From positions 1,377,353-1,441,352 of the forward strand of contig NC_011831.1 of NCBI RefSeq assembly GCF_000021945.1: a stretch of 64,000 bases of DNA. The letters are read 5' to 3'. The position numbers were made by a program, and so were the translations under genes. The notes beneath the pieces are model-generated. The model was given only the letters and a program-made list of their open reading frames with translations. It had not been told where the DNA came from and did not search any database. Shown one piece after another: positions 31,251-42,636 of this stretch. Positions within the stretch are counted from its first letter, which is position 1; each line of letters opens with the position of its first letter. The DNA is from Chloroflexus aggregans DSM 9485 (GTDB taxonomy: Bacteria; Chloroflexota; Chloroflexia; Chloroflexales; Chloroflexaceae).

Positions 31251-31926
31251 TCAGTAACGGTTCGAGCCGACCCTGTTGCCACCGCCCGATCACCTCAACC
31301 GAGCCATAGCGCACCGAACCACTCCTCGCTAAACGTTCGAGCATCGGTTCATCGCGCTCGCCGTACAACACCTTAATTTGGCGCGCAGTCGATACCGGTA
31401 CACCACCGGGACCAATCGCATCTACCAACAAACTGGTGCCACTCGCGACAATCAGGTTAGCCTGTACGCGCACAACCATACCCTCATAACGGTTATCACG
31501 TAACAGTGCTGCCAAATCGACCGTCTCCGGTTCAAAGGCTTGCAAACGTGGTGATTCCAACGCATACGACCACGCTCCGCCCGGCCCGTACAAACCGGCA
31601 GAAAGCCACCTTCCTTGTGCAATTACGAAGCCGTACTGAACACCACCGACGGTATGTAGCACCACTCCGTCCGGCGGATCGACAGCACCGAGCCACACCT
31701 GTTGAGGAGACGTATCGAGTGGCAGCGGACGATCCCCGCTCACGGTCAAGCTGTTGACTAAGCGCGATCCTTGCTCATCGCGATACAAGATGGCGATGAC
31801 CTGTTGCGCGCCATGCGTCGCCGGTTCGGTGATGTCAACCGGTAATGGCAACCGTTGCCTCGCCGTGCATCCGCTGCATACCCAGATGAGACCGATAACA
31901 AAGAAAACGAACAAATGTTTGTACAT
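31234..31926 (-). CDS. Hypothetical lipoprotein
   Basis: A 230-residue protein with a lipoprotein signal peptide (MYKHLFVFFVIGLIWVCSGC; lipidated cysteine at residue 20). The mature part is beta-rich with no recognised domain; a segment near the C-terminus (MVVRVQANLIVASGTSLLVDAIG) resembles an OB-type fold but is not diagnostic. It is encoded alone and converges with the kinase gene, overlapping its last 17 bp. I chose ATG 31926 since frames upstream to 31998 give no signal peptide. Confidence 0.65.
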   Translation of the reverse strand: MYKHLFVFFVIGLIWVCSGCTARQRLPLPVDITEPATHGAQQVIAILYRDEQGSRLVNSLTVSGDRPLPLDTSPQQVWLGAVDPPDGVVLHTVGGVQYGFVIAQGRWLSAGLYGPGGAWSYALESPRLQAFEPETVDLAALLRDNRYEGMVVRVQANLIVASGTSLLVDAIGPGGVPVSTARQIKVLYGERDEPMLERLARSGSVRYGSVEVIGRWQQGRLEPLLITPLP

Positions 31927-32043
31927 ACGCTCTTTATTGTACCACATGCAGGTGTTACGACCTTCAAATACGCTCATGACAGCCGTCAGACAGGCCAATG
32001 ATAGGTTTTGACAGTTGTTTTAAGCCTACTTTACGGCAAGCCG

Positions 32044-32052
32044 TGGTATTGT
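32044..32052 (+). promoter_or_regulatory. Possible extended -10 box upstream of HMG-CoA reductase gene
   Basis: TGG-TATTGT about 107 bases before the chosen start; a weaker member of the set of TGG-TA boxes. If used, it would give a leader of roughly 100 nt. Confidence 0.25.
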
Positions 32053-32158
32053 AGAAAGCGATGGGCTACCACGTGCTAGCCCACGTTCATAGCATCCTAC
32101 CGAGTGATCACGACAGCAGAAGATGAATACAGTATCAGATGAAGGGAGGAGTCCTCGT

Positions 32159-33481
32159 ATGGGGACCAAGAATTCTCGTCTACAAGGCTTTTACCAACTG
32201 AATCCGTTCGAGCGATTGCAGATGGTTAAATCATTTGATGGGTTAGTTGACGAAGACCTACGGGCGCTCCACGGTGGTCAGGGTGGCGCGCTGACCCTCG
32301 AGCGCGCCGACAAAATGATCGAAAACGTTGTTGGTACGTATAATCTACCCCTTGGCATTGCAACCAACTTCCGTATTAACGGACGCGACTATTTGATACC
32401 GATGGTAGTAGAAGAGCCATCGATTGTCGCCGGCGCGAGCTATGCCGCCCGTATGGTGCGTGACGGTGGTGGGTTCGAGACCAGCAGCACCGAACCGTTA
32501 ATGATCGGGCAGGTACAATTGGTCAATATTGCCAACCCCGATCAGGCCCGTGAAGCCATCCTTGCCCGCAAGGACGAGATTTTGGCGCTGGCCAACGCAC
32601 AGAGCCGATCGCTGGTTGCACTTGGTGGCGGTGCGCGCGATGTTGAAGTGCGCTTCTTCCCCACCAGCCCGATGGGGCCGATGTTGGTCGTCCACCTTAT
32701 CGTTGATTGCCGTGACGCAATGGGCGCCAATGCAGTTAACACAATGGCCGAGGCAGTAGCACCGCTATTAGCCGACATAACCGGTGGTAAGGTTTATCTG
32801 CGCATCCTCTCGAATCTGACCGATCGGCGGCTAGCCCGTGCCCGCTGCGTCGTACCGGCAGCCTCCTTGGCCCGTGATGGTCTCAGCGGCGAGGAGGTGG
32901 TCGAGGGTATTCTCTGGGCTTACGCCTTTGCTGCGGTTGACCCGTACCGGGCCGCAACCCACAACAAAGGCATTATGAACGGTATCGATCCAATACTGGT
33001 TGCCACCGGCAACGACTGGCGTGCAGTGGAAGCCGGTGCGCACGCCTACGCCAGCCGTAACGGTCGTTACACCTCGCTCTCGCACTGGGAGCGCGATGAG
33101 AATGGGAATCTGGTCGGCACCCTCGAAATGCCACTCTCGGTTGGTATCGTCGGTGGGGCGACCAAGGTGCATCCCACGGCCCAAGCTGCGTTGAAGTTGC
33201 TAGGAGTGCGCAGCGCCAACGAGCTGGCTGAAGTGTGTGTTGCTGCCGGCTTAGCCAACAACCTCGCGGCAATGCGGGCATTAGCTTGCGAGGGCATCCA
33301 GCAGGGCCATATGAGCTTGCATGCGCGCCAAATTGCACTGGCAGCCGGCGCAACCGGTACACTGGTCGACGAAGTCGCCCGCCGGATGGTCGCCGAGCGC
33401 AATATCAAGCCGGCACGCGCCGAAGAGATTATTGCCGAACTCGAAAGACGACAACACGCCGGCAATCCCTCCCACAACTGA
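32159..33481 (+). CDS. mvaA: Hydroxymethylglutaryl-CoA reductase, class II
   Basis: A 440-residue class II HMG-CoA reductase. The catalytic glutamate is E85 in [13 protein letters not shown], the lysine lies in [10 protein letters not shown], the aspartate in GNDWRA and the C-terminal histidine in [10 protein letters not shown]. It reduces HMG-CoA to mevalonate, or works in reverse in mevalonate degraders; the neighbouring HMG-CoA synthase favours the biosynthetic direction. I chose ATG 32159, which follows GGAGGAG, over an in-frame ATG 12 codons upstream. It leads a mevalonate locus of five genes on the + strand. Confidence 0.93.
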
Positions 33482-33494
33482 TCGTGTCGCCTCT

Positions 33495-33525
33495 GGCGGC
33501 CTGTTCGTTGCTGAAGCAGGCCGCC
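33495..33525 (+). terminator. GC-rich hairpin directly after mvaA
   Basis: A 9-bp stem (GGCGGCCTG with CAGGCCGCC) and 13-nt loop, 13 bp after the HMG-CoA reductase stop. No T-tract follows, so it may stabilise the mRNA or partly terminate before the HMG-CoA synthase gene. Confidence 0.35.
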
Positions 33526-33708
33526 GTTCACTGTCACCGTTGACAGACTAGTGTGCAATATCGATTGCCGCACAAGGGTGATGTTTGTTTGCTCAACCAA
33601 GCCACTCCTGCGGTATCGCTCGTGAACCACTCGCTACCGTGTGGCGGGGATAGGTGTTGCTTTCTTGCGCTCCTGTAGCGCCCAATTCCAATTTCGGGAG
33701 CACTGGTT

Positions 33709-34758
33709 ATGATGAAACCGAACCAACCTGTCGGCATTATCGGCTATGGCGTGTACATCCCACGTTACCGGATCGCAGCGCGCGAAATTGCTCGGATCTG
33801 GACAGACGGTCAGAATGGCGTCCCCGTGGAGGCAAAGAGCGTTCCCGGCCCCGATGAAGACACGATTACGATGGCAATTGAAGCGGCGCGTAATGCGCTG
33901 GTGCGTGCCGACATTCCGGCTAGCGCACTCGGTGCGGTCTGGATCGGGAGCGAAAGCCATCCCTACAGCGTGAAACCATCGGGGACGGTAGTAGCCGACG
34001 CACTCGGCGCCGGGCCATGGGTGAGTGCCGCCGACTGGGAATTCGCATGTAAGGCCGGCTCCGAAGCGCTGACCGCGGCGATGGCACTGGTCGGCAGTGG
34101 GATGCAGCGCTACGCCTTGGCGATCGGCGCCGACACTGCCCAGGGGCGTCCCGGTGATGCGCTGGAATACACTGCTTCCGCCGGCGCAGCAGCGTTGATC
34201 GTTGGTCCTGCCACCGAAGCGTTGGCGACCATCGATGCAACCGTCTCGTATGTCACCGATACCCCTGACTTCTACCGCCGCGCCGACCGACCGTATCCGG
34301 TACACGGCAACCGCTTCACCGGCGAGCCGGCGTACTTCCACCAGATTCAATCGGCAGCCTCTGAATTATTACGTCAACTCAACCGTACTGCTGCCGACTT
34401 TACCTATGCCGTCTTCCATCAACCTAATGCGAAATTTCCCCAGACGGTTGCCAAACGACTCGGCTTCACCGATGCCCAAATCGCGCCGGGATTGCTCAGT
34501 CCACAGATCGGTAATACCTATTCGGGCGCCGCACTGCTAGGCCTGTGTGCCATTCTCGATGTCGCCAAACCGGGCGATACCATCTTCGTAACGAGCTACG
34601 GTAGTGGGGCCGGTTCCGACGCTTATGCCCTCACCGTCACCGAAGCGATTGTGGAGCGACGCGAGCGAGCGCCATTGACGGCAGCGTACCTCGCCCGCAA
34701 GGTGATGATCGATTACGCAATGTATGCGAAATGGCGCGGTAAGTTGGTGATGGGCTAG
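33709..34758 (+). CDS. mvaS: Hydroxymethylglutaryl-CoA synthase (archaeal/bacterial short type)
   Basis: A 349-residue thiolase-fold enzyme that condenses acetoacetyl-CoA and acetyl-CoA to HMG-CoA. The three catalytic residues are intact: E82 in GSESHPY, nucleophile C114 in WEFACKAG and H237 in VFHQPNAKFP. Its length and motifs match the archaeal-type enzyme that forms a complex with thiolase and a DUF35 protein. Both such partners are encoded just downstream. Tandem ATGs (33709/33712) follow GGGAG. The 114-bp spacer to the thiolase-like gene has no terminator I can see. Confidence 0.93.
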   Translation: MMKPNQPVGIIGYGVYIPRYRIAAREIARIWTDGQNGVPVEAKSVPGPDEDTITMAIEAARNALVRADIPASALGAVWIGSESHPYSVKPSGTVVADALGAGPWVSAADWEFACKAGSEALTAAMALVGSGMQRYALAIGADTAQGRPGDALEYTASAGAAALIVGPATEALATIDATVSYVTDTPDFYRRADRPYPVHGNRFTGEPAYFHQIQSAASELLRQLNRTAADFTYAVFHQPNAKFPQTVAKRLGFTDAQIAPGLLSPQIGNTYSGAALLGLCAILDVAKPGDTIFVTSYGSGAGSDAYALTVTEAIVERRERAPLTAAYLARKVMIDYAMYAKWRGKLVMG

Positions 34759-34871
34759 GGAACGTTCGCGGTGGTTGATACGTAAATGCAACATCACGTA
34801 TTGCGCTGGCAATACCATCCATCCGATAACGTTGTGGTGCGAGAAAAACAACCATCCATCGAGGAGTCGTT

Positions 34872-36038
34872 ATGACGAACGTCTATATTGCAGGTATGGG
34901 AGCGACTGCGGTTGGCGAGCACTACCGGCGCAGCCTCGCCGATCTCGTCAGTGAAGCAGCTCGTGCCGCGCTATCCAGCACACCGGGAATCGCTCCGCAT
35001 CAGATCGGCGCACTCTATGTCGGTAGTGCCTACAGCGAAGAGCTGTATGGGCAAAGCCAACTCGGCGCATATCTCGCCGGTGTACTGGGCCTCTCCACCT
35101 CCATCCCCACACTCCGCGTCGAAGCCGCCGGCGCGAGTGGCGGATTAGCCCTCTACCAGGCAGTCCAGGCAGTACAACATGGCTTGCCATTAGCACTGGT
35201 CATCGGTGTCGAAAAGGTCACCGATCAACTCGAAGACGATATTGAGGCCGCACAAGCAATGGCAAGTGACGGCAATGAAGAGGCGTTACACGGCATCACC
35301 TTGACGGCACAGTGGGCAATGCTGATGCGTCGCTACATGTACGAATACGGCTATAGCGCTGAAGCGTTCGCGCCGTTTCCGATCAATGCCCATGCCAACG
35401 GGGCGAAAAATCCGCTTGCCCTTTACCGTTTTCCCATTGACGCCAACAAGTATCGCAAAGCGGCGATGGTTGCATCACCGATCAACCTGCTCGATTGCAG
35501 TACCCTTGCCGATGGCGCAGCAGCCCTTCTGATCGCCGGCGAGCACTTGGCCCGCGAACTAACCGGGCCGCGCATTCGTATTGCCGGGTCGGCGGTTGCG
35601 ACCGACACGGTTGCCCTTCACCGCCGACGTAACCCGCTCGAACTAACTGCCGCGCGGGCCAGTGCGCACATTGCGCTAGGCCGCGCCCACCTCGGCGTCG
35701 GCGATGTTCACGTCTGGGAGCTGACCGATCCGCACGGCATTGCCGCAACTTTGGCGCTGGAAGCGATTGGCTGTTACGAACCCGGTACAACCCCACGCCA
35801 CGCCGCCGAAGGAGCGATTACTCCGACCGGTAAGACACCCATTGCCACGGCCGGCGGCTATAAAGCGCGCGGTGACGTAGGTGGAGCAAACGGAATCTAT
35901 CAGGTGATCGAGCTTGCCCATCAACTCTGCGGTACAGCCGGCGCAACTCAAGTCGCCGATGCACGGATTGGGTTAGCGCAAACACTTGGTGGCATTGGGG
36001 CGACGGCAGTGACCCATGTCCTGATTCGCGAATCGTGA
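34872..36038 (+). CDS. Thiolase-family protein lacking the catalytic residues
   Basis: A 388-residue SCP2/archaeal-type thiolase homologue with the full-length fold and a good GGAG ribosome site. The nucleophilic cysteine of the usual VEAACASGG motif is replaced by glycine (G87 in VEAAGASGG). The usual HDAF segment reads TDPHG (285-289), and the catalytic histidine of the usual GHPxGATG motif is aspartate (D335 in ARGDVGGANG). It therefore should not act as an ordinary acetoacetyl-CoA thiolase. Its place between HMG-CoA synthase and a DUF35 gene mirrors the archaeal thiolase/HMGCS/DUF35 complex, so a structural or CoA-binding role in that complex is plausible. An annotation as acetyl-CoA acetyltransferase would be misleading. 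Confidence 0.85.
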   Translation: MTNVYIAGMGATAVGEHYRRSLADLVSEAARAALSSTPGIAPHQIGALYVGSAYSEELYGQSQLGAYLAGVLGLSTSIPTLRVEAAGASGGLALYQAVQAVQHGLPLALVIGVEKVTDQLEDDIEAAQAMASDGNEEALHGITLTAQWAMLMRRYMYEYGYSAEAFAPFPINAHANGAKNPLALYRFPIDANKYRKAAMVASPINLLDCSTLADGAAALLIAGEHLARELTGPRIRIAGSAVATDTVALHRRRNPLELTAARASAHIALGRAHLGVGDVHVWELTDPHGIAATLALEAIGCYEPGTTPRHAAEGAITPTGKTPIATAGGYKARGDVGGANGIYQVIELAHQLCGTAGATQVADARIGLAQTLGGIGATAVTHVLIRES

Positions 36039-36067
36039 GCGTACCCCTTTACGACGGTAGTTGCGTG

Positions 36068-36076
36068 CGGTACAAT
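36068..36076 (+). promoter_or_regulatory. Promoter-like -10 box upstream of the Yip1-like gene
   Basis: CGG-TACAAT in the short spacer after the thiolase-like gene, about 40 bases before ATG 36116; it suggests the last two genes of the locus can be transcribed separately. Confidence 0.4.
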
Positions 36077-36115
36077 AAGGCTGCTCCCGTCCGTATCTAT
36101 CTAAGGAGTACACGT

Positions 36116-36745
36116 ATGTTTCAGGAAATGGTCAATGGCAGTATCGCTGTCCTAACCAAACCGTCGGCCCAAACGTTCGAACAGCATGAGCGAGATAATC
36201 TGGTGTGGGCGTTGATCTACGCCGTTATTGCCAGTGTGATCAACGGTATCCTGGCGGCGATAACATGGCCCTTCCGTATGGGAGGCATTCGCGCGCAATT
36301 CGAGGCACAAGGACTACCAAGCGACGTTATCGATGCAACGCTCGCACAACAAGGGAATGTTATCAGTCTTGTTCTCGGTGGTATTTTTGGTACTATCATC
36401 GGCTCGTTAGTGGTTTGGGGCCTGATCTATCTGCTCGGACGAGCCTTTGGCGGTACCGGCAGCTTTGGCGAGCTGGCGTGGGACATTTCGCTCTTTTCGT
36501 CACCTTTAGCAGTAGGGCAGGCGATCGCGAATGCAATCCCCTTCGTTGGTTTCATCGTTTCGCTCGGTCTTACGGTATACGGCGTCTATTTGACGTACTT
36601 AGCTATTCAGTCGGGCATGAACCTGCCCGCACAGAAAGCTCTCTACGTTGCTATTATTTTGTTCGTCATCGGCACCATCTTTATTTGTGTGACGACAGGA
36701 TTTTTAGCCGTCGTTACGCTCTTGAGTGGGGGATTTGCGCCATGA
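36116..36745 (+). CDS. Yip1-like multi-span membrane protein
   Basis: A 209-residue protein with about five hydrophobic segments (around residues 35-57, 85-108, 120-145, 150-170 and 180-205), starting FQEMVNGSIAVLTKP in the style of Yip1/YIF1-type bacterial membrane proteins. AAGGAG precedes ATG 36116. Its stop overlaps the start of the DUF35 gene as ATGA, so the two are translationally coupled. The function is unknown; the coupling is odd because DUF35 proteins are soluble partners of thiolase-fold enzymes. Confidence 0.75.
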   Translation: MFQEMVNGSIAVLTKPSAQTFEQHERDNLVWALIYAVIASVINGILAAITWPFRMGGIRAQFEAQGLPSDVIDATLAQQGNVISLVLGGIFGTIIGSLVVWGLIYLLGRAFGGTGSFGELAWDISLFSSPLAVGQAIANAIPFVGFIVSLGLTVYGVYLTYLAIQSGMNLPAQKALYVAIILFVIGTIFICVTTGFLAVVTLLSGGFAP

Positions 36746-37143
36746 ATATTGCACGACACTGGCGGGAACGCATAAGCCGTTACCGACTGGAAGGGCAACG
36801 CCATCGCCATACCGGCGAAGTGCGCTTTCCAGCCCAACCACCGACCCTTGATGAAGACCCGAACGATTGGGAGCCGTATCAGTTAAGCGGGCGCGGGGAG
36901 ATCTACAGCTTTAGCGTCATTCGCCAGGCACCGTCTGGTTTTGAAAGCCTCGGTATCTATCCGGTGGCTCTGGTGCGGTTAGAGGAAGGCCCTCTGGTGA
37001 CAGCACAATTAACCGATTGTGACGAAGCCGACCTCGCCATCGGGATGCCGGTCGAGATGGTTACCCGCCGGCTGATGGATACCGGTGAGGACGGGGTATT
37101 GGTATACGGTTATAAATTCCGCCCCTGCCTACGCTCATCGTAA
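36742..37143 (+). CDS. DUF35 OB-fold protein lacking its zinc ribbon
   Basis: A 133-residue protein matching DUF35 layout: an N-terminal helix (HWRERISRYRLEG), a short ribbon region, then an OB-fold (YQLSGRGEIYSFSVI, FESLGIYPVALVRLEEGP). The four zinc-binding cysteines expected in the ribbon are gone: the first CxxCG position reads HRHTG (residues 21-25) and the second pair is replaced by a PPT stretch. In archaea the DUF35 protein bridges acetoacetyl-CoA thiolase and HMG-CoA synthase, passing acetoacetyl-CoA between them. Here it ends a locus containing both homologues. It starts in the ATGA overlap with the membrane protein gene. Confidence 0.78.
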   Translation: MNIARHWRERISRYRLEGQRHRHTGEVRFPAQPPTLDEDPNDWEPYQLSGRGEIYSFSVIRQAPSGFESLGIYPVALVRLEEGPLVTAQLTDCDEADLAIGMPVEMVTRRLMDTGEDGVLVYGYKFRPCLRSS

Positions 37144-37191
37144 CACCGTATGATTGCACGCGCCGCACGACTGTGCGGCGCTTCGACCGTT

Positions 37192-37605
37192 TTACGGACC
37201 AACCACCATCGGGTAACCGGCTGCGGCCCATGCCCGCATCCCACCGGCAACGTTGATCACCTCAAATCCACGCGATCGCAACAGATCACACGCTGCCGCA
37301 CTCCGATTCCCCGACCGACAGATGCAAACAATCGGTTTGTCGGTCGGTAGTTCGCTCAAACGCTGTTCCAACTCTTGGAGCGGGATAAGCGTTGATTGGG
37401 CGATCCGGCCATCTTGGACAAATTCCTGCGGCGTGCGTACATCGAGCAGGAAGAAGTTTTCTTGCCGGTCTAGCATGGTTTTCAAGCGGGCAACGTTGAT
37501 CTCAGCCGGCAACTTTGTGGCCGGCGATGTGGTTGTTGCTGCTGTACCACAAGCAGTGAGGACAATGGTCGTCATCAGCAAGAGAGCTAATCCAAAGCGT
37601 TGCAT
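37192..37605 (-). CDS. Rhodanese-domain lipoprotein
   Basis: A 137-residue protein: a lipoprotein signal with lipobox VLTAC (cysteine 19), a short Thr/Ser-rich linker, then one rhodanese domain with active-site loop CRSGNRS. Rhodaneses transfer sulfane sulfur via a cysteine persulfide; the signal places this one outside the cytoplasmic membrane. It is the last gene of the sulfur cluster, separated from the SulP gene by a spacer with a palindrome. The ATG 37605 is chosen since only this start gives a signal peptide. Confidence 0.85.
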   Translation of the reverse strand: MQRFGLALLLMTTIVLTACGTAATTTSPATKLPAEINVARLKTMLDRQENFFLLDVRTPQEFVQDGRIAQSTLIPLQELEQRLSELPTDKPIVCICRSGNRSAAACDLLRSRGFEVINVAGGMRAWAAAGYPMVVGP

Positions 37606-37634
37606 AGTTGTTATCCTTATTCTCAAAGGCGATT

Positions 37635-37667
37635 GGGTAGGAACACAACGACGCTGTGTCCCTACCC
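37635..37667 (-). terminator. Intercistronic palindrome between SulP and rhodanese lipoprotein genes
   Basis: GGGTAGGAACACA pairs imperfectly with TGTGTCCCTACCC around a short loop. It belongs to the GTAGGG…CCCTAC palindrome type and lies in the 101-bp spacer between two co-directional genes. Confidence 0.4.
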
Positions 37668-37706
37668 ACTGCCAGAGGCCATCTTCCAACGACAACAGAG
37701 CGTCTA

Positions 37707-39473
37707 TCAATCTCGGCAACCCAACGCTAGCATCGCCGAGTGCGTTGTCAGGTGGATGTGATCTTGCCCGATCTTATCGAGCAATTCCGACCGCTTGAGC
37801 CGATCCATGACCGGTCCTTTAATATCGGCCAAATGAAACTCGACACCGGCATCGCGCAGACCATCAATTAAGTTATGGAGAGTATGCAAGGCGCTCGAGT
37901 CGATAAAATTAATGGCCGAACCGATCAACACCAAATGCTTCACCTCAGGTCGTTCAGCCACAATCCGCAATAACGTCTGCTCGAGATAGCGCGTATTGGC
38001 GAAATAGATGCTCTCGTCAACACGGACGGCCACTACGTGCGGCCATGTCTTGACCGGATGACGCTCGACGTTGCGGTAGACTTCACTGTTCCCCAGCCGA
38101 CCAACGATGGCAATATGCGGACGGCTAGTACGCCAGAGGTAAAGAATGAGCGCCGAAGCGACGCCGGCAAAGATACCGGTCTCAATCCCAAGAGCCAGCA
38201 CCGCCACAAACGTAATAAGCCATGTAAAGGCATCCCCGCGATTAGTGCGCCAGATTTGCTGCGGCTCATGCAGATCAACCAGCCCGATGACGGCTACGAT
38301 CACGGTTGCCGCCAACACTGCCTGCGGTAGGTAATAGAAGACCGACGTAAAGAAGAGCAGGATCAGCGCAATCATGGCGGCAGTGATCAACGATGCCAAA
38401 CCGGTGATCGCACCGGCCTGCGCATTGACCACCGAGCGAGCAAACCCACCCGTCACCGGGTAACCGCTAAAAAAGCCGGCCGCAATATTGGCAGCACCAA
38501 GCGCAACCAATTCCTGATCGGGATCAATTGCTTGACGACGCTTGCTGGCCAATGCCTTAGCGACGGCTATCGACTCAACCACACTGACCAACACAATCGT
38601 GAGAGCTGTCGGCAGTAAGGCTTGTGCGTCGGCTATGGTTAAGACAGGTGAGCTAATCGGTGATAGGCCGGGCGGGATCGTCCCTACAACCGCGACACCG
38701 GCAACTTGATCGAGGCGGAATGCTTGTGCCACTAGAATACCAAAAATCACCGCCAACAGTGGCGCACCACTCACGATTAAGGTGACTGCTAGCGGTGATA
38801 ACCCGGCCCGGCGCAACAACGGACGCAGCCCCTGCCGAAAGAAGAGTAACAAACCAATACTTGCCAAACCAATCACCAACGTGGCAACGTTGGTCTGGCT
38901 CAGACCGGCGATTGCTTGTGCAATCGTTTCGTAGATATGTTCACCACCGATCCGATAACCGAGAATATATTTCAATTGACCCACCGCAATAATCAGTGCT
39001 GAGGCACTGGTAAACGCGGCCAACACCGGATGTGAAATGAAGTTAAGGATCACACCCAGTCTGAATATCCCCAAAGCCAATTTGATCGCACCAACCATAA
39101 AGGCCAGCAAGAGCACCAACTGAAAATAGCGCTCAGTACCCGGCACAGCCAACGCACTCACCCCGTTGAACACGAGGAGGGACGTGATCGCGACCGGACC
39201 TACCGAAAGTTGACCTGAGGTACCGAGGAGGGCGTAGACAATCAGTGGCGCGACCGATGCGTACAGACCAACCTGCGGTGGAAGACCGGCCAACTGGGCG
39301 TAAGCCATGCTCTGCGGAATGAGCATAATGGCGGTAACGATTCCCGCCACTATGTCGCTAGGCAGATGCTCGAGCCGGTAGGTACGTAACCAGTTCAGGA
39401 ATGGCAGGTAGCGTGTAATCATCATCAGCAACGCTGCCTGCACTCCCGGTTGGCGCGCAGAAACGGGCATCAT
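37707..39473 (-). CDS. SulP-family anion (sulfate) transporter with STAS domain
   Basis: A 588-residue permease with about 10-12 membrane spans and a C-terminal cytoplasmic STAS domain. The SulP signatures are clear: PSDIVAGIVTAIMLIPQSMAYAQLAG near the N-terminus (positions 38-63) and a GFFSGYPVTGGFARS segment in the membrane core. The STAS part has VDESIYFANTRYLEQ and the INFIDSSALHTL loop. Substrate may be sulfate, bicarbonate or another anion; the rhodanese-rich neighbourhood favours a sulfur oxyanion. ATG 39473 follows GGGGAG. The upstream gene ends only 11 bp away, so they are co-transcribed. Confidence 0.9.
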   Translation of the reverse strand: MMPVSARQPGVQAALLMMITRYLPFLNWLRTYRLEHLPSDIVAGIVTAIMLIPQSMAYAQLAGLPPQVGLYASVAPLIVYALLGTSGQLSVGPVAITSLLVFNGVSALAVPGTERYFQLVLLLAFMVGAIKLALGIFRLGVILNFISHPVLAAFTSASALIIAVGQLKYILGYRIGGEHIYETIAQAIAGLSQTNVATLVIGLASIGLLLFFRQGLRPLLRRAGLSPLAVTLIVSGAPLLAVIFGILVAQAFRLDQVAGVAVVGTIPPGLSPISSPVLTIADAQALLPTALTIVLVSVVESIAVAKALASKRRQAIDPDQELVALGAANIAAGFFSGYPVTGGFARSVVNAQAGAITGLASLITAAMIALILLFFTSVFYYLPQAVLAATVIVAVIGLVDLHEPQQIWRTNRGDAFTWLITFVAVLALGIETGIFAGVASALILYLWRTSRPHIAIVGRLGNSEVYRNVERHPVKTWPHVVAVRVDESIYFANTRYLEQTLLRIVAERPEVKHLVLIGSAINFIDSSALHTLHNLIDGLRDAGVEFHLADIKGPVMDRLKRSELLDKIGQDHIHLTTHSAMLALGCRD

Positions 39474-39484
39474 ACCCTCTCCCC

Positions 39485-39979
39485 TTACCTCTGCATGCCG
39501 CTCCGCTCAAAGAAATCGTCGGCGCAGAACTCAAAAGTTGCCATTGCCTCATCATCGTAACCGGCAGCGCGTAGTTCGGCCTCAGCCTGTTCGCGCGTCC
39601 AACCCTGATGCACGATCCGATAGAGCATCCAAATCAGACCGACGCGGGTGGCACTGCGGCAATGAAACACCAGCTTACCGGTTTCCGGAGCTTCGACAAT
39701 CCGAGCAAACTCGGCCAGATGCTCCGGCTCCAATTCGTAGGCCGGCCATGGTACGTGAATGTAGTGTAAACCGGCAGCACGAGCGTTAGCTGCTTGCACG
39801 GCTGCCCGTTCGGGATCACTGCGAATATTCAAGACAGTTTTGTAACCCGCTGCCACAAAACGTTGCCAATCTTCTGGCTGTGGCTGCGCTGCCAGCAATA
39901 CCCGATCGGTAACAGCATAGCTGCGCAGCGGTGCGATCTCAGTTTGGTGCTGTAAGGCATTGCAAAGTTGATCCTGCAT
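39485..39979 (-). CDS. BLH-type phosphatase/sulfurtransferase-like protein (DUF442-like)
   Basis: A 164-residue protein resembling the beta-lactamase-hydrolase-like (DUF442/TIGR01244) family: an early VTDRVLLAAQPQPEDWQ segment, VLNIRSDPE, then the active-site loop FHCRSATRVG. The loop is C-X4-R, closer to a rhodanese CRSGTR loop than to the C-X5-R of true tyrosine phosphatases; the usual glycine is alanine. In other bacteria these proteins are fused to or beside persulfide dioxygenases and rhodaneses, matching this operon. It is translated just before the SulP gene. Confidence 0.75.
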   Translation of the reverse strand: MQDQLCNALQHQTEIAPLRSYAVTDRVLLAAQPQPEDWQRFVAAGYKTVLNIRSDPERAAVQAANARAAGLHYIHVPWPAYELEPEHLAEFARIVEAPETGKLVFHCRSATRVGLIWMLYRIVHQGWTREQAEAELRAAGYDDEAMATFEFCADDFFERSGMQR

Positions 39980-40002
39980 AGGTTTTACTTCTCCCCGTAC
40001 AT

Positions 40003-40036
40003 CGCAACGCTCTGCCCAACCGGGTAGAGCGCTGCG
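40003..40036 (-). terminator. Intercistronic hairpin between rhodanese and BLH genes
   Basis: Arms of 11 bp (CGCAACGCTCT with AGAGCGCTGCG, one mismatch) around a 12-nt loop in the 63-bp spacer; no T-tract. Possibly an mRNA-processing or stabilising structure. Confidence 0.35.
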
Positions 40037-40042
40037 ATTCGC

Positions 40043-40408
40043 TTACTGACGATTAATCGGATAGCCGGACCGCTGCCACGCGATCATCCCACCAACCACA
40101 TTCGTCACGTTGGTGAAGCCGTGGCGTTGGAGCATTTCACAAGCCACCTGGCTGCGATTGCCCGACCGGCAAATGCACACAATCGGTTGATCTTTCGGCA
40201 ATTCGTTCATGCGCATTGCCAACATTGGCAGCGGCAGCAAACGTGCGCCGGCCACATGCCCATCGTAAGCAAACTCTTCCGGCTGGCGCACATCAACCAG
40301 CACAATCGGTTCACGTGAGTCCAACTTCGCTTTTAACTCTTGCACCGTCATGGTACCAATTTGATTAGCTTGGGTTTCACGCTGATTGCGAAACAGTTGT
40401 CGAAACAT
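40043..40408 (-). CDS. Single-domain rhodanese
   Basis: A 121-residue rhodanese with a short basic N-terminus and the active-site loop CRSGNRS, identical to that of the lipoprotein rhodanese in this cluster. It ends with the GGMIAWQRSGYP motif typical of the fold. It lacks a signal peptide, so it handles persulfide sulfur in the cytoplasm, probably passing it to the TusA- and DsrE-like proteins encoded just upstream. Start ATG 40408 has AAAGG about 9 bases upstream; the ATG two codons earlier is possible. Confidence 0.88.
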   Translation of the reverse strand: MFRQLFRNQRETQANQIGTMTVQELKAKLDSREPIVLVDVRQPEEFAYDGHVAGARLLPLPMLAMRMNELPKDQPIVCICRSGNRSQVACEMLQRHGFTNVTNVVGGMIAWQRSGYPINRQ

Positions 40409-40432
40409 AGTCATTATCCTTTCACAAGAAAT

Positions 40433-40470
40433 GACGGCGCGCTCGCCTTTGTTCACGTGATCGCGCCGTC
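40433..40470 (-). terminator. Intercistronic hairpin between DsrE-like and rhodanese genes
   Basis: A 9-bp perfect stem (GACGGCGCG with CGCGCCGTC) and 20-nt loop in the 99-bp spacer; no T-tract. One of four such hairpins in the spacers of this cluster. Confidence 0.35.
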
Positions 40471-40507
40471 GTCGATCAATCTCTCATTGCGCCTACATCG
40501 GCTCTTT

Positions 40508-41083
40508 TTAAATGAACAACGTCACTTTCGAACGTGCAGCATCGCCAAGGAACGTTGCGACACCGCCGGTCTCCAAGCCTTCAACCAGCTCTTCATCCTT
40601 GATACCGAGTAATTCACGCGACATGTCGCAGACGACCATGCGCACGCCCAATTCACGAGCCATTGCAAACAATTCTTCCGGCGACGCAACATCGTGTTTC
40701 TTCATCAGGTTGCGGATGATCTGCGCACCGGCCCCGAAGAAGTTCATCTGCGATAGACCCAGCTCACCCAGCTTGCCGGGGAGCATTGCCGTGAAGCCCT
40801 GCTCAAGCAGGTTCTTGCCGCTGAAGACCTTTTGTTTCTTCACTGCACTGATGCCCCAGAAGGTGAAGAACATACTCACTTCGAGACCCATCGAGGCAGC
40901 ACCGGTGGCGATGATGAACGCAGCAATTGCCTTATCCAAATCGCCGGAGAAGACGACCATCGCCAGCCGATCTTCAATCCCCTGCGCCGGCGACTGCTCA
41001 AGTGCGGCGACGCGCTGCTCAAGTTCGGCGATCCGGGCGAGCAGGGCTTGCGTATCAACCGTTTCCGTCATCGGTGTTGTCAT
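40508..41083 (-). CDS. DsrE/DsrF-like sulfur carrier protein (DrsE2 type)
   Basis: A 191-residue protein: a short coiled-coil-like start (ALLARIAELEQRVAALEQ) followed by a DsrE-like domain (MVVFSGDLDKAIAAFIIATG, MGLEVSMFFTFWG) with a cysteine in RMVVCDMSRELLG near the C-terminus. DsrE-type proteins relay sulfane sulfur, often with TusA and rhodanese; those partners flank it here. The hydrophobic FFTFWG segment is typical of this subfamily and is not a membrane span. It lies 49 bp after tusA. Confidence 0.85.
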   Translation of the reverse strand: MTTPMTETVDTQALLARIAELEQRVAALEQSPAQGIEDRLAMVVFSGDLDKAIAAFIIATGAASMGLEVSMFFTFWGISAVKKQKVFSGKNLLEQGFTAMLPGKLGELGLSQMNFFGAGAQIIRNLMKKHDVASPEELFAMARELGVRMVVCDMSRELLGIKDEELVEGLETGGVATFLGDAARSKVTLFI

Positions 41084-41132
41084 TGCTTTTCCTTCCTTAC
41101 GTTACTGTTTCACCTGCCGGAGCAATGCTACG

Positions 41133-41381
41133 TTAGGCCGTGCGGCGCAGATAGTGAATGTACAGCTCCTGTCCGTTCTCTTGCACCGTCTCTTGCGCAA
41201 CAAGCTCAACGTTCTTGGCCGTCTTCACCCAACCCTGAAAATCGGCTACCGAACCACGGTCGGTCGATATTACCTGCAACACCTTACCGACCGGCAATTC
41301 GGTAATCGCCTTGCGGCTCTTGACCAGCGGCATTGGGCACTTCGCCCCTTTAACATCGAGTGTTTGATCAAACTGCGGCAT
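41133..41381 (-). CDS. tusA: TusA-family sulfur carrier protein
   Basis: An 82-residue TusA/SirA-like protein. The persulfide-carrying cysteine lies in the signature KGAKCPMPLVKSRKAI. AAAGGAGGAG precedes the ATG at 41381. TusA proteins accept sulfur from rhodaneses and hand it to DsrE-type carriers or to biosynthetic enzymes; both kinds of partner are its neighbours, so a relay in sulfur trafficking is well supported, with the end acceptor unknown. Confidence 0.9.
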   Translation of the reverse strand: MPQFDQTLDVKGAKCPMPLVKSRKAITELPVGKVLQVISTDRGSVADFQGWVKTAKNVELVAQETVQENGQELYIHYLRRTA

Positions 41382-41405
41382 GTTGTCTCCTCCTTTGTAT
41401 CCATC

Positions 41406-41430
41406 GGCGGTAGCAGCGCAGACTACCGCC
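41406..41430 (-). terminator. Intercistronic hairpin between MBL-rhodanese and tusA genes
   Basis: An 8-bp stem (GGCGGTAG with CTACCGCC) and 9-nt loop in the 67-bp spacer; no T-tract. Confidence 0.35.
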
Positions 41431-41448
41431 ATCACTATCCTTATCCTA

Positions 41449-42636
41449 TCACTTTTCCCCGGACAATGCACAGATATTCTTGCCCAATTCCAATTCGCTC
41501 GCTTTGCCATCGCAGGCTTCTACCAGACCAATGTTCACCCGCTTGATCTCGACGTACTCCGGCGGGAAGACCGGCAGGTGGCTGAGCACGTAGCTCGTGA
41601 ACTCTTCCAGCGTGCGCGGCTTGAGGCTGTCATTCCGCGCCAACACCTGCTTGTACGGCGCGGCAAAGATGCCATTGCCGGCATCCTCCTCAAGGGTGCT
41701 GAAGTGGGCCGGTAGGATCATTGTGTCGTCGGTCAGATGACGTGGCAGCCACTCGAACATGCTGCGGTAGAGGATGGGCGTCCACGCTTCACCCTTACCA
41801 CCCAAATCGGGGCGACCAAACGAGCGCAAGAAGATACCGTCACCGGTGAACAGGTAACGACCACCATCCGGCGTCTCGGCGAGAAAGTTGACCTGGCCGA
41901 GGGTGTGACCCGGATACCAGATGGTTGTGATCCGCACCTGCCCAATTTGGAAGACCTGCCCATCGCGCAACGGCTCATAGGCAATCACCGCCGGTAGCAT
42001 ATCGATGGGGTGAATGGCGTCGTAGGGATGGATGTAGTACGGTGCGCCGGTTTCCTTCGCCAACGCAGGACCACCGCTGATGTGGTCGGCATGGACGTGC
42101 GTGTCGAGAATGGTTGTCAACTTCGCACCGGCGCCTTCGATCAGCTCACGGTAGACATTGGTATGGCGGAGCGGGTCGATGAGCGCGGCCTGTCCATCGC
42201 TGATAATCGCGAAGCTGAGGTCGCCGCGGGCGGGGCGGGCAATCTGCACAATCCGACCCCAAGTGGCGCTCACCACATCGCGCACATCGTAATAGTTCCC
42301 CCAACCGATTGTCCCGTCCGTCACCGAGACGGCACGGTAGCCGTGATTATTCAGGATTTCAGCGACGTACTGCGATGAACCACCCTTGGCACAGATAACG
42401 ATAACCTCTTCAACATCGTTTGGCATACGAGCCAACGCCGCCTCTTCGTCTTCAATAAAGTCGTAGTAGGGCAGATTGAGGGTGCGCAGCGTCGCATGCC
42501 CCTCGATCGGCATACGCTTGAACTCGTCCTCGTTGCGCACGTCGAGAATGAACAACGGTTGTGCGCTCAACAGGCGGGCATACAGTTCGCGGGGAGAAAT
42601 TTCAGTAACAGTCGATTGATCCTGCGTGAACGTCAT
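41449..42636 (-). CDS. Rhodanese-metallo-beta-lactamase fusion (persulfide dioxygenase-like)
   Basis: A 395-residue fusion. Residues 10-120 are a rhodanese domain with active-site loop CAKGGSS. Residues 130-380 are a metallo-beta-lactamase domain with the metal motif THVHADHISG, a further histidine in YPGHTLGQ and an aspartate in LFTGDGIF. The domain order (rhodanese first) differs from the common ETHE1 followed by rhodanese. ETHE1-like members oxidise glutathione or CoA persulfide to sulfite; the exact activity here is unproven. It heads the sulfur operon, whose other genes are carriers, rhodaneses and an anion transporter. Confidence 0.88.
   Translation of the reverse strand: MTFTQDQSTVTEISPRELYARLLSAQPLFILDVRNEDEFKRMPIEGHATLRTLNLPYYDFIEDEEAALARMPNDVEEVIVICAKGGSSQYVAEILNNHGYRAVSVTDGTIGWGNYYDVRDVVSATWGRIVQIARPARGDLSFAIISDGQAALIDPLRHTNVYRELIEGAGAKLTTILDTHVHADHISGGPALAKETGAPYYIHPYDAIHPIDMLPAVIAYEPLRDGQVFQIGQVRITTIWYPGHTLGQVNFLAETPDGGRYLFTGDGIFLRSFGRPDLGGKGEAWTPILYRSMFEWLPRHLTDDTMILPAHFSTLEEDAGNGIFAAPYKQVLARNDSLKPRTLEEFTSYVLSHLPVFPPEYVEIKRVNIGLVEACDGKASELELGKNICALSGEK

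Follow-up and report, generated by a model that had tools for sequence, protein, structure and literature searches.

The archaeal complex of thiolase, HMG-CoA synthase (HMGCS) and a DUF35 protein is accounted for by channelling, in which the product of the unfavourable thiolase reaction passes directly to HMGCS. In the Methanothermococcus complex (6ESQ, Voegeli et al. 2018), each of the three proteins contributes residues that bind CoA, according to a paper that cites it (PMC6392133). PhlACB, or PpATase (5M3K), also combines three proteins of these families. Its HMGCS-like subunit PhlA has neither catalytic Cys nor Glu and is believed to be required solely for assembly, and the N-terminal region of its DUF35 protein packs against both partners (PMC6392133). 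The steroid aldolases Ltp2-ChsH2 and Sal-Shy (6OK1, 9MYR) have a thiolase fold, are DUF35-bound and have lost the nucleophile Cys, which is Gly in Sal (PMC12329534). An inactive thiolase in a mevalonate locus was not found reported in the open-access literature under the terms searched.

The window analysed here is a stretch of 64,000 nucleotides of Chloroflexus aggregans (G000:C1:1377353-1441352) from a single-contig genome of 4,684,931 bases, the closest relatives of which are Chloroflexus species. It contains all three 6ESQ-type gene families clustered together (Table 1), with the same folds and with HMGCS catalytic residues intact. The Chloroflexus version differs from 6ESQ in that its thiolase has none of the Cys/His/His residues and the DUF35 of its order has no zinc ligands, and channelling from thiolase to HMGCS would be impossible in it. 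The Chloroflexota case would, by analogy, be the mirror image of PhlACB: there PhlA is dead and the thiolase-like PhlC active, whereas here the reverse holds, and in the mevalonate pathway. Unlike Ltp2 and Sal, the Chloroflexus protein lies in a mevalonate locus rather than one for steroid breakdown, and its DUF35 partner is a separate protein. ST0096 of Sulfolobus tokodaii (4YZO; Z 54.1) is also an archaeal-type thiolase whose nucleophile Cys is missing in the alignment, but its GHP motif is intact and its HDxx segment still has the first His.

Table 1 Coordinates of the mevalonate genes and of the replaced residues within the window
Feature	Position	Strand	Support
HMG-CoA reductase (HMGR), first gene of the cluster	32123..33481	+	TIGR00532
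Archaeal-type HMGCS, catalytic E82/C114/H237 intact	33709..34758	+	TIGR00748; 6esq_I E 1.3e-122
Pseudo-thiolase ORF, 388 aa	34872..36038	+	Thiolase_C_1 E 7.5e-35; Thiolase_N E 4e-16
Codon 87, Gly replacing the nucleophile Cys	35130..35132	+	structure alignment, order alignment
Codon 148, an invariant Trp within the order, where live Chloroflexota thiolases have Asn and most other dead thiolases Ala	35313..35315	+	
Codons 285-288, T-D-P-H replacing HDAF; the order has H288 throughout	35724..35735	+	
Codon 335, Asp replacing the GHP His	35874..35876	+	
Yip1-domain membrane protein between thiolase and DUF35, 4-base overlap with each	36035..36745	+	
DUF35 scaffold protein of 133 aa, without its zinc ligands	36742..37143	+	6esq_E E 9.4e-30; 6esq_F Z 15.2
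Former zinc ribbon of DUF35, H21, T24, T35 and E38 in place of four Cys	36802..36855	+	

Catalytic residues of the pseudo-thiolase and their fate across the phylum

The reading frame of the pseudo-thiolase is uninterrupted, and its product could be aligned end to end with solved thiolases using HMMER (7yvy, E 3.5e-75; 6esq_A, E 1.5e-51). In these alignments the nucleophile Cys is matched by G87, HDAFT/HDCFA by T285-D286-P287-H288-G289 and GHP/GHA by G334-D335-V336, in agreement with the residue calls of the first-pass annotation (G87, TDPHG, D335); the nucleophile Cys, the HDxF His and the GHP His are all lacking. The thiolase fold is retained: PF22691 and PF00108 score above cut-off, and the predicted structure (pLDDT 96.3), which like the other models behind our fold matches is a monomer only, has 6esq_A as its best PDB match (Z 63.4, rmsd 1.2 over 384 residues). 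Against the NCBIfam equivalog for archaeal acetyl-CoA acetyltransferase (NF053570) the protein scores 289 bits, below the cut-off of 600. The HMGCS next door had been noted to keep E82, C114 and H237, and it does; it scores 502 bits with TIGR00748 (cut-off 353), and these Glu, Cys and His residues are invariant beside dead and live thiolases alike wherever the residue is covered.

The protein is present in 55 of the 60 genomes of the window's order, some of them MAGs in which absence of a gene may reflect incomplete assembly. The first-pass annotation had proposed a survey of relatives; in all 54 full-length genes the nucleophile Cys is lost and the GHP His is replaced by D, rarely N. Residue 87 is almost always G (L119 has T, L131 a local gap), the HDAF motif reads (T/S/C/H)-D-(P/Q)-H with D286 and H288 invariant, and D335 is nearly invariant. 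The earlier statement that every catalytic residue is replaced is thus true of the window and of most members of the order but not of L132 and L140, which keep the first His (HDPH), and not outside the order, where HD is retained in most dead thiolases.

To avoid the bias of a thiolase-led search, 161 genomes of the phylum were searched for archaeal-type HMGCS, and 35 were positive, 19 of them outside the order. In 15 of these 19 non-order mevalonate loci the thiolase has neither Cys87 nor the GHP His (usually G paired with F, in others D, E or Q paired with N or F), while four have a canonical thiolase, counts that are not independent because the genomes share kinship. A separate thiolase-led scan also recovered both canonical and dead classes. 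The replacements vary by lineage (G/D/E/Q/S/N/T at residue 87, T/S/C/Y/D at 285, D/N/F at 335), as expected if catalysis no longer matters. The trait thus spans the order and most of the sampled Chloroflexota loci, an extent that goes beyond the first-pass annotation.

A second type of dead thiolase, with Asp at the nucleophile position, GNP for GHP and HD retained, was seen in L026, L032, L042, L059, L068, L072, L051, L086 and L182. The DUF35 zinc Cys are retained in these loci wherever a full DUF35 is present.

It could be argued that the protein is still a thiolase using another Cys and His, as C209 and C371 both occur often in the order. Residue 371 directly precedes the LGG motif, a position that holds the second Cys in classical thiolases. 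However, these residues reach only 79% (C209) and 67% (C371) in the order, Chloroflexus has T or S at 371, neither Cys occurs in live thiolases, and the nucleophile turn itself carries Gly at position 87. No Cys that could substitute reaches 80% conservation in the order or exceeds 60% in the other dead lineages, and an alternative active-site Cys, which the first-pass annotation had named as a possible refutation, is most improbable. A Sal/Ltp2-type aldolase was also considered and rejected, as the YD(H/C) motif is missing and residues 285-288 are TDPH.

Selection, rates and trees

Median dN/dS between Chloroflexus species is 0.058 for the thiolase, 0.034 for HMGCS, 0.027 for HMGR, 0.087 for DUF35 and 0.122 for the Yip1 gene, figures that are approximate since many dS values exceed 1. 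The pseudo-thiolase is under purifying selection. The ratio of thiolase to HMGCS divergence is about 1.0 in live loci versus about 1.5-2.1 in dead loci, and that of DUF35 to HMGCS rises from 1.24 in live loci to 1.4-2.1 in dead ones. Constraint on the dead thiolases is relaxed, not released. Live thiolases share 107 invariant positions; the order has lost 25 of them, including six of the nine in catalytic motifs (Fisher p 0.005). C87, F144, V145, N148 and H335 are gone or almost gone from each dead group, and N148 has been replaced by W in the order and by A in most other dead groups.

In trees built with the motif columns removed, C87 was lost at least twice (in the main group and in L049). 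Two live groups join the main dead group via a fork without deciding support, which leaves one loss or more within it; support values are SH-aLRT only, without bootstrap, and several branches are long.

Loss of the catalytic residues and a faster rate are also what a decaying gene would give, and the first-pass annotation had allowed for sequencing errors at the replaced codons. Both ideas are refuted by the same changes in 54 genomes of the order and by a dN/dS of 0.06, and there is no internal stop among the matches listed; we put the chance of either at next to nil. The recurrence of the losses in these 54 genomes and in 15 of 19 other loci indicates an old change rather than an error of sequencing.

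A probable structural role and the supply of acetoacetyl-CoA

DXR was detected in none of the 60 genomes of the order but in 9 of 14 control genomes. Chloroflexus aurantiacus has been described as relying on mevalonate alone (PMC3847144), and an alternative mevalonate pathway operates in Roseiflexus (PMC3857490). With DXR absent and Chloroflexus reported to depend on mevalonate only, the HMGCS step is needed. Canonical thiolases (TIGR01930) are encoded in 59 of the 60 genomes, the exception being G029, which is about 92% complete, and in 11 of 11 genomes examined that have a dead thiolase outside the order. The genome of the window has three at other sites: a fadA-like one adjoining a fadB-like gene, a BktB-like one adjoining a reductase of PhaB type (neighbours named by eye) and an AtoB/PhaA-like one. 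Judging from sequence, such thiolases can supply acetoacetyl-CoA, and most simply the source would be the AtoB/PhaA-like thiolase at C1:2994589. This fits the earlier proposal that acetoacetyl-CoA comes from elsewhere.

The neighbourhood of the thiolase is conserved. The order HMGR-HMGCS-thiolase-DUF35 is kept across the phylum in loci long enough to judge, although in some loci of the order HMGR is not within about 4 kb of the cluster. Four of the 60 genomes of the order have neither the thiolase nor archaeal-type HMGCS; in the fifth genome without the thiolase, G049, HMGCS ends 253 bases before the contig end, and the absence is explained by a contig break at the expected thiolase site.

The DUF35 protein shows a second loss, one that the first-pass annotation did not mention. 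According to a paper of 2019, all DUF35 structures known at the time bind zinc (PMC6996347). The protein encoded here has no Cys4 zinc ribbon, and none of the four zinc Cys is present in any sequence from the order, whereas all four are present in each of the 33 full-length sequences from outside it, including those beside dead thiolases. Despite the loss of the ligands, the best match of its AlphaFold model is still 6esq_F, and W7, R8 and Y14 of the N-terminal region are invariant in 87 sequences.

Chemistry has been lost in various ways in many lineages, yet frame, fold, neighbours and purifying selection are kept, and the best reading of this pattern is a structural subunit. We consider it probable that the protein is a pseudoenzyme kept as a structural subunit of a 6ESQ-like thiolase/HMGCS/DUF35 assembly, with HMGCS using acetoacetyl-CoA made elsewhere. 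In such an assembly the dead thiolase would no longer make acetoacetyl-CoA; it would hold HMGCS and DUF35 together and contribute part of the shared CoA-binding surface of HMGCS, which would take free acetoacetyl-CoA from a canonical thiolase encoded elsewhere, channelling having been lost. Physical assembly, CoA binding by the pseudo-thiolase and its lack of activity are what we infer from these patterns. The first-pass annotation had suggested a non-enzymatic partner of HMGCS, and purifying selection, fixed gene order, co-occurrence and the matches to 6ESQ subunits, all read from sequence, favour that suggestion.

If the protein is indeed such a scaffold, the three-part assembly would last not for channelling but because this HMGCS depends on its partners for activity or for binding CoA, and the DUF35 zinc ribbon would be dispensable. 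Mevalonate is apparently the sole isoprenoid route, and an old bacterial lineage would have retained the thiolase subunit but not its chemistry. Labelling the protein as acetyl-CoA acetyltransferase would then be an error in most of the sampled Chloroflexota mevalonate loci.

Some observations run counter to this reading. In the order the pocket has been fixed anew (W148 and H288 invariant, D335 nearly so), which is more order than a pure scaffold needs, and the doubled rate of the thiolase could reflect adaptation to a new task. The lack of a canonical thiolase in G029 also counts against it. The refixed pocket is our main reason for keeping a new function under consideration. In Chloroflexales the emptied pocket (G87, T/S285, H288, D/N335, W148) may have been rebuilt for a new task with HMGCS on a zinc-less DUF35, either gating or sensing acyl-CoA or a new reaction; we regard this as doubtful. 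Were it true, the first committed step of isoprenoid synthesis would be run by a machine unlike the archaeal one.

Another possibility is that the thiolase fold acquired a new active site, as it did in Ltp2 and Sal; here H288 with D286 or D335 beside W148 might carry out another C-C or thioester reaction on acyl-CoA. Across the order H288, D286 and W148 never vary and D335 hardly does, and Sal is active although it too has Gly at the nucleophile position (PMC12329534). We nevertheless consider a repurposed enzyme unlikely: there is no common new site, since other dead lineages lack H288 and W148 and usually carry F or N at 335; the Tyr that is catalytic in the Ltp2/Sal YD motif is missing (TDPH); and the conserved neighbourhood shows no substrate pathway besides mevalonate. 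It is quite improbable that the dead subunit is instead a regulatory sensor that binds CoA or acetyl-CoA and tunes HMGCS while being dispensable for assembly. The refixed pocket residues would suit a sensor, as would the sharing of the CoA site in the archaeal complex (PMC6392133), but sequence hardly separates it from the scaffold model. A structural subunit remains the reading that we prefer.

Neighbouring genes and minor observations

The Yip1-domain membrane protein is not thought to be part of the complex. A gap of its size between thiolase and DUF35 is missing in most relatives outside the family, where the two genes are adjacent. A GAGGAG ribosome-site-like motif lies a few bases 5' of the pseudo-thiolase ATG; promoter and terminator scans of 31900-37300 gave sites no more numerous than in shuffled sequence.

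In G010, G017 and G021 (L204-L207), HMG-CoA reductase is present and archaeal-type HMGCS, DXR and IspG were not found. G010 and G017 are rated 100% complete, and G021 has one HMGCS-like ORF of another type (L176).

Downstream of the cluster, on the minus strand at 37192-42636, translations examined by eye suggest rhodanese-like, SulP-type transporter, DsrE/TusA-like and metallo-hydrolase-rhodanese ORFs. Directly upstream of the rhodanese gene, a palindromic hairpin around GTAGGGACACAGCGTCGTTGTGTTCCTAC (about 37635-37667, minus strand) may be a dispersed repeat.
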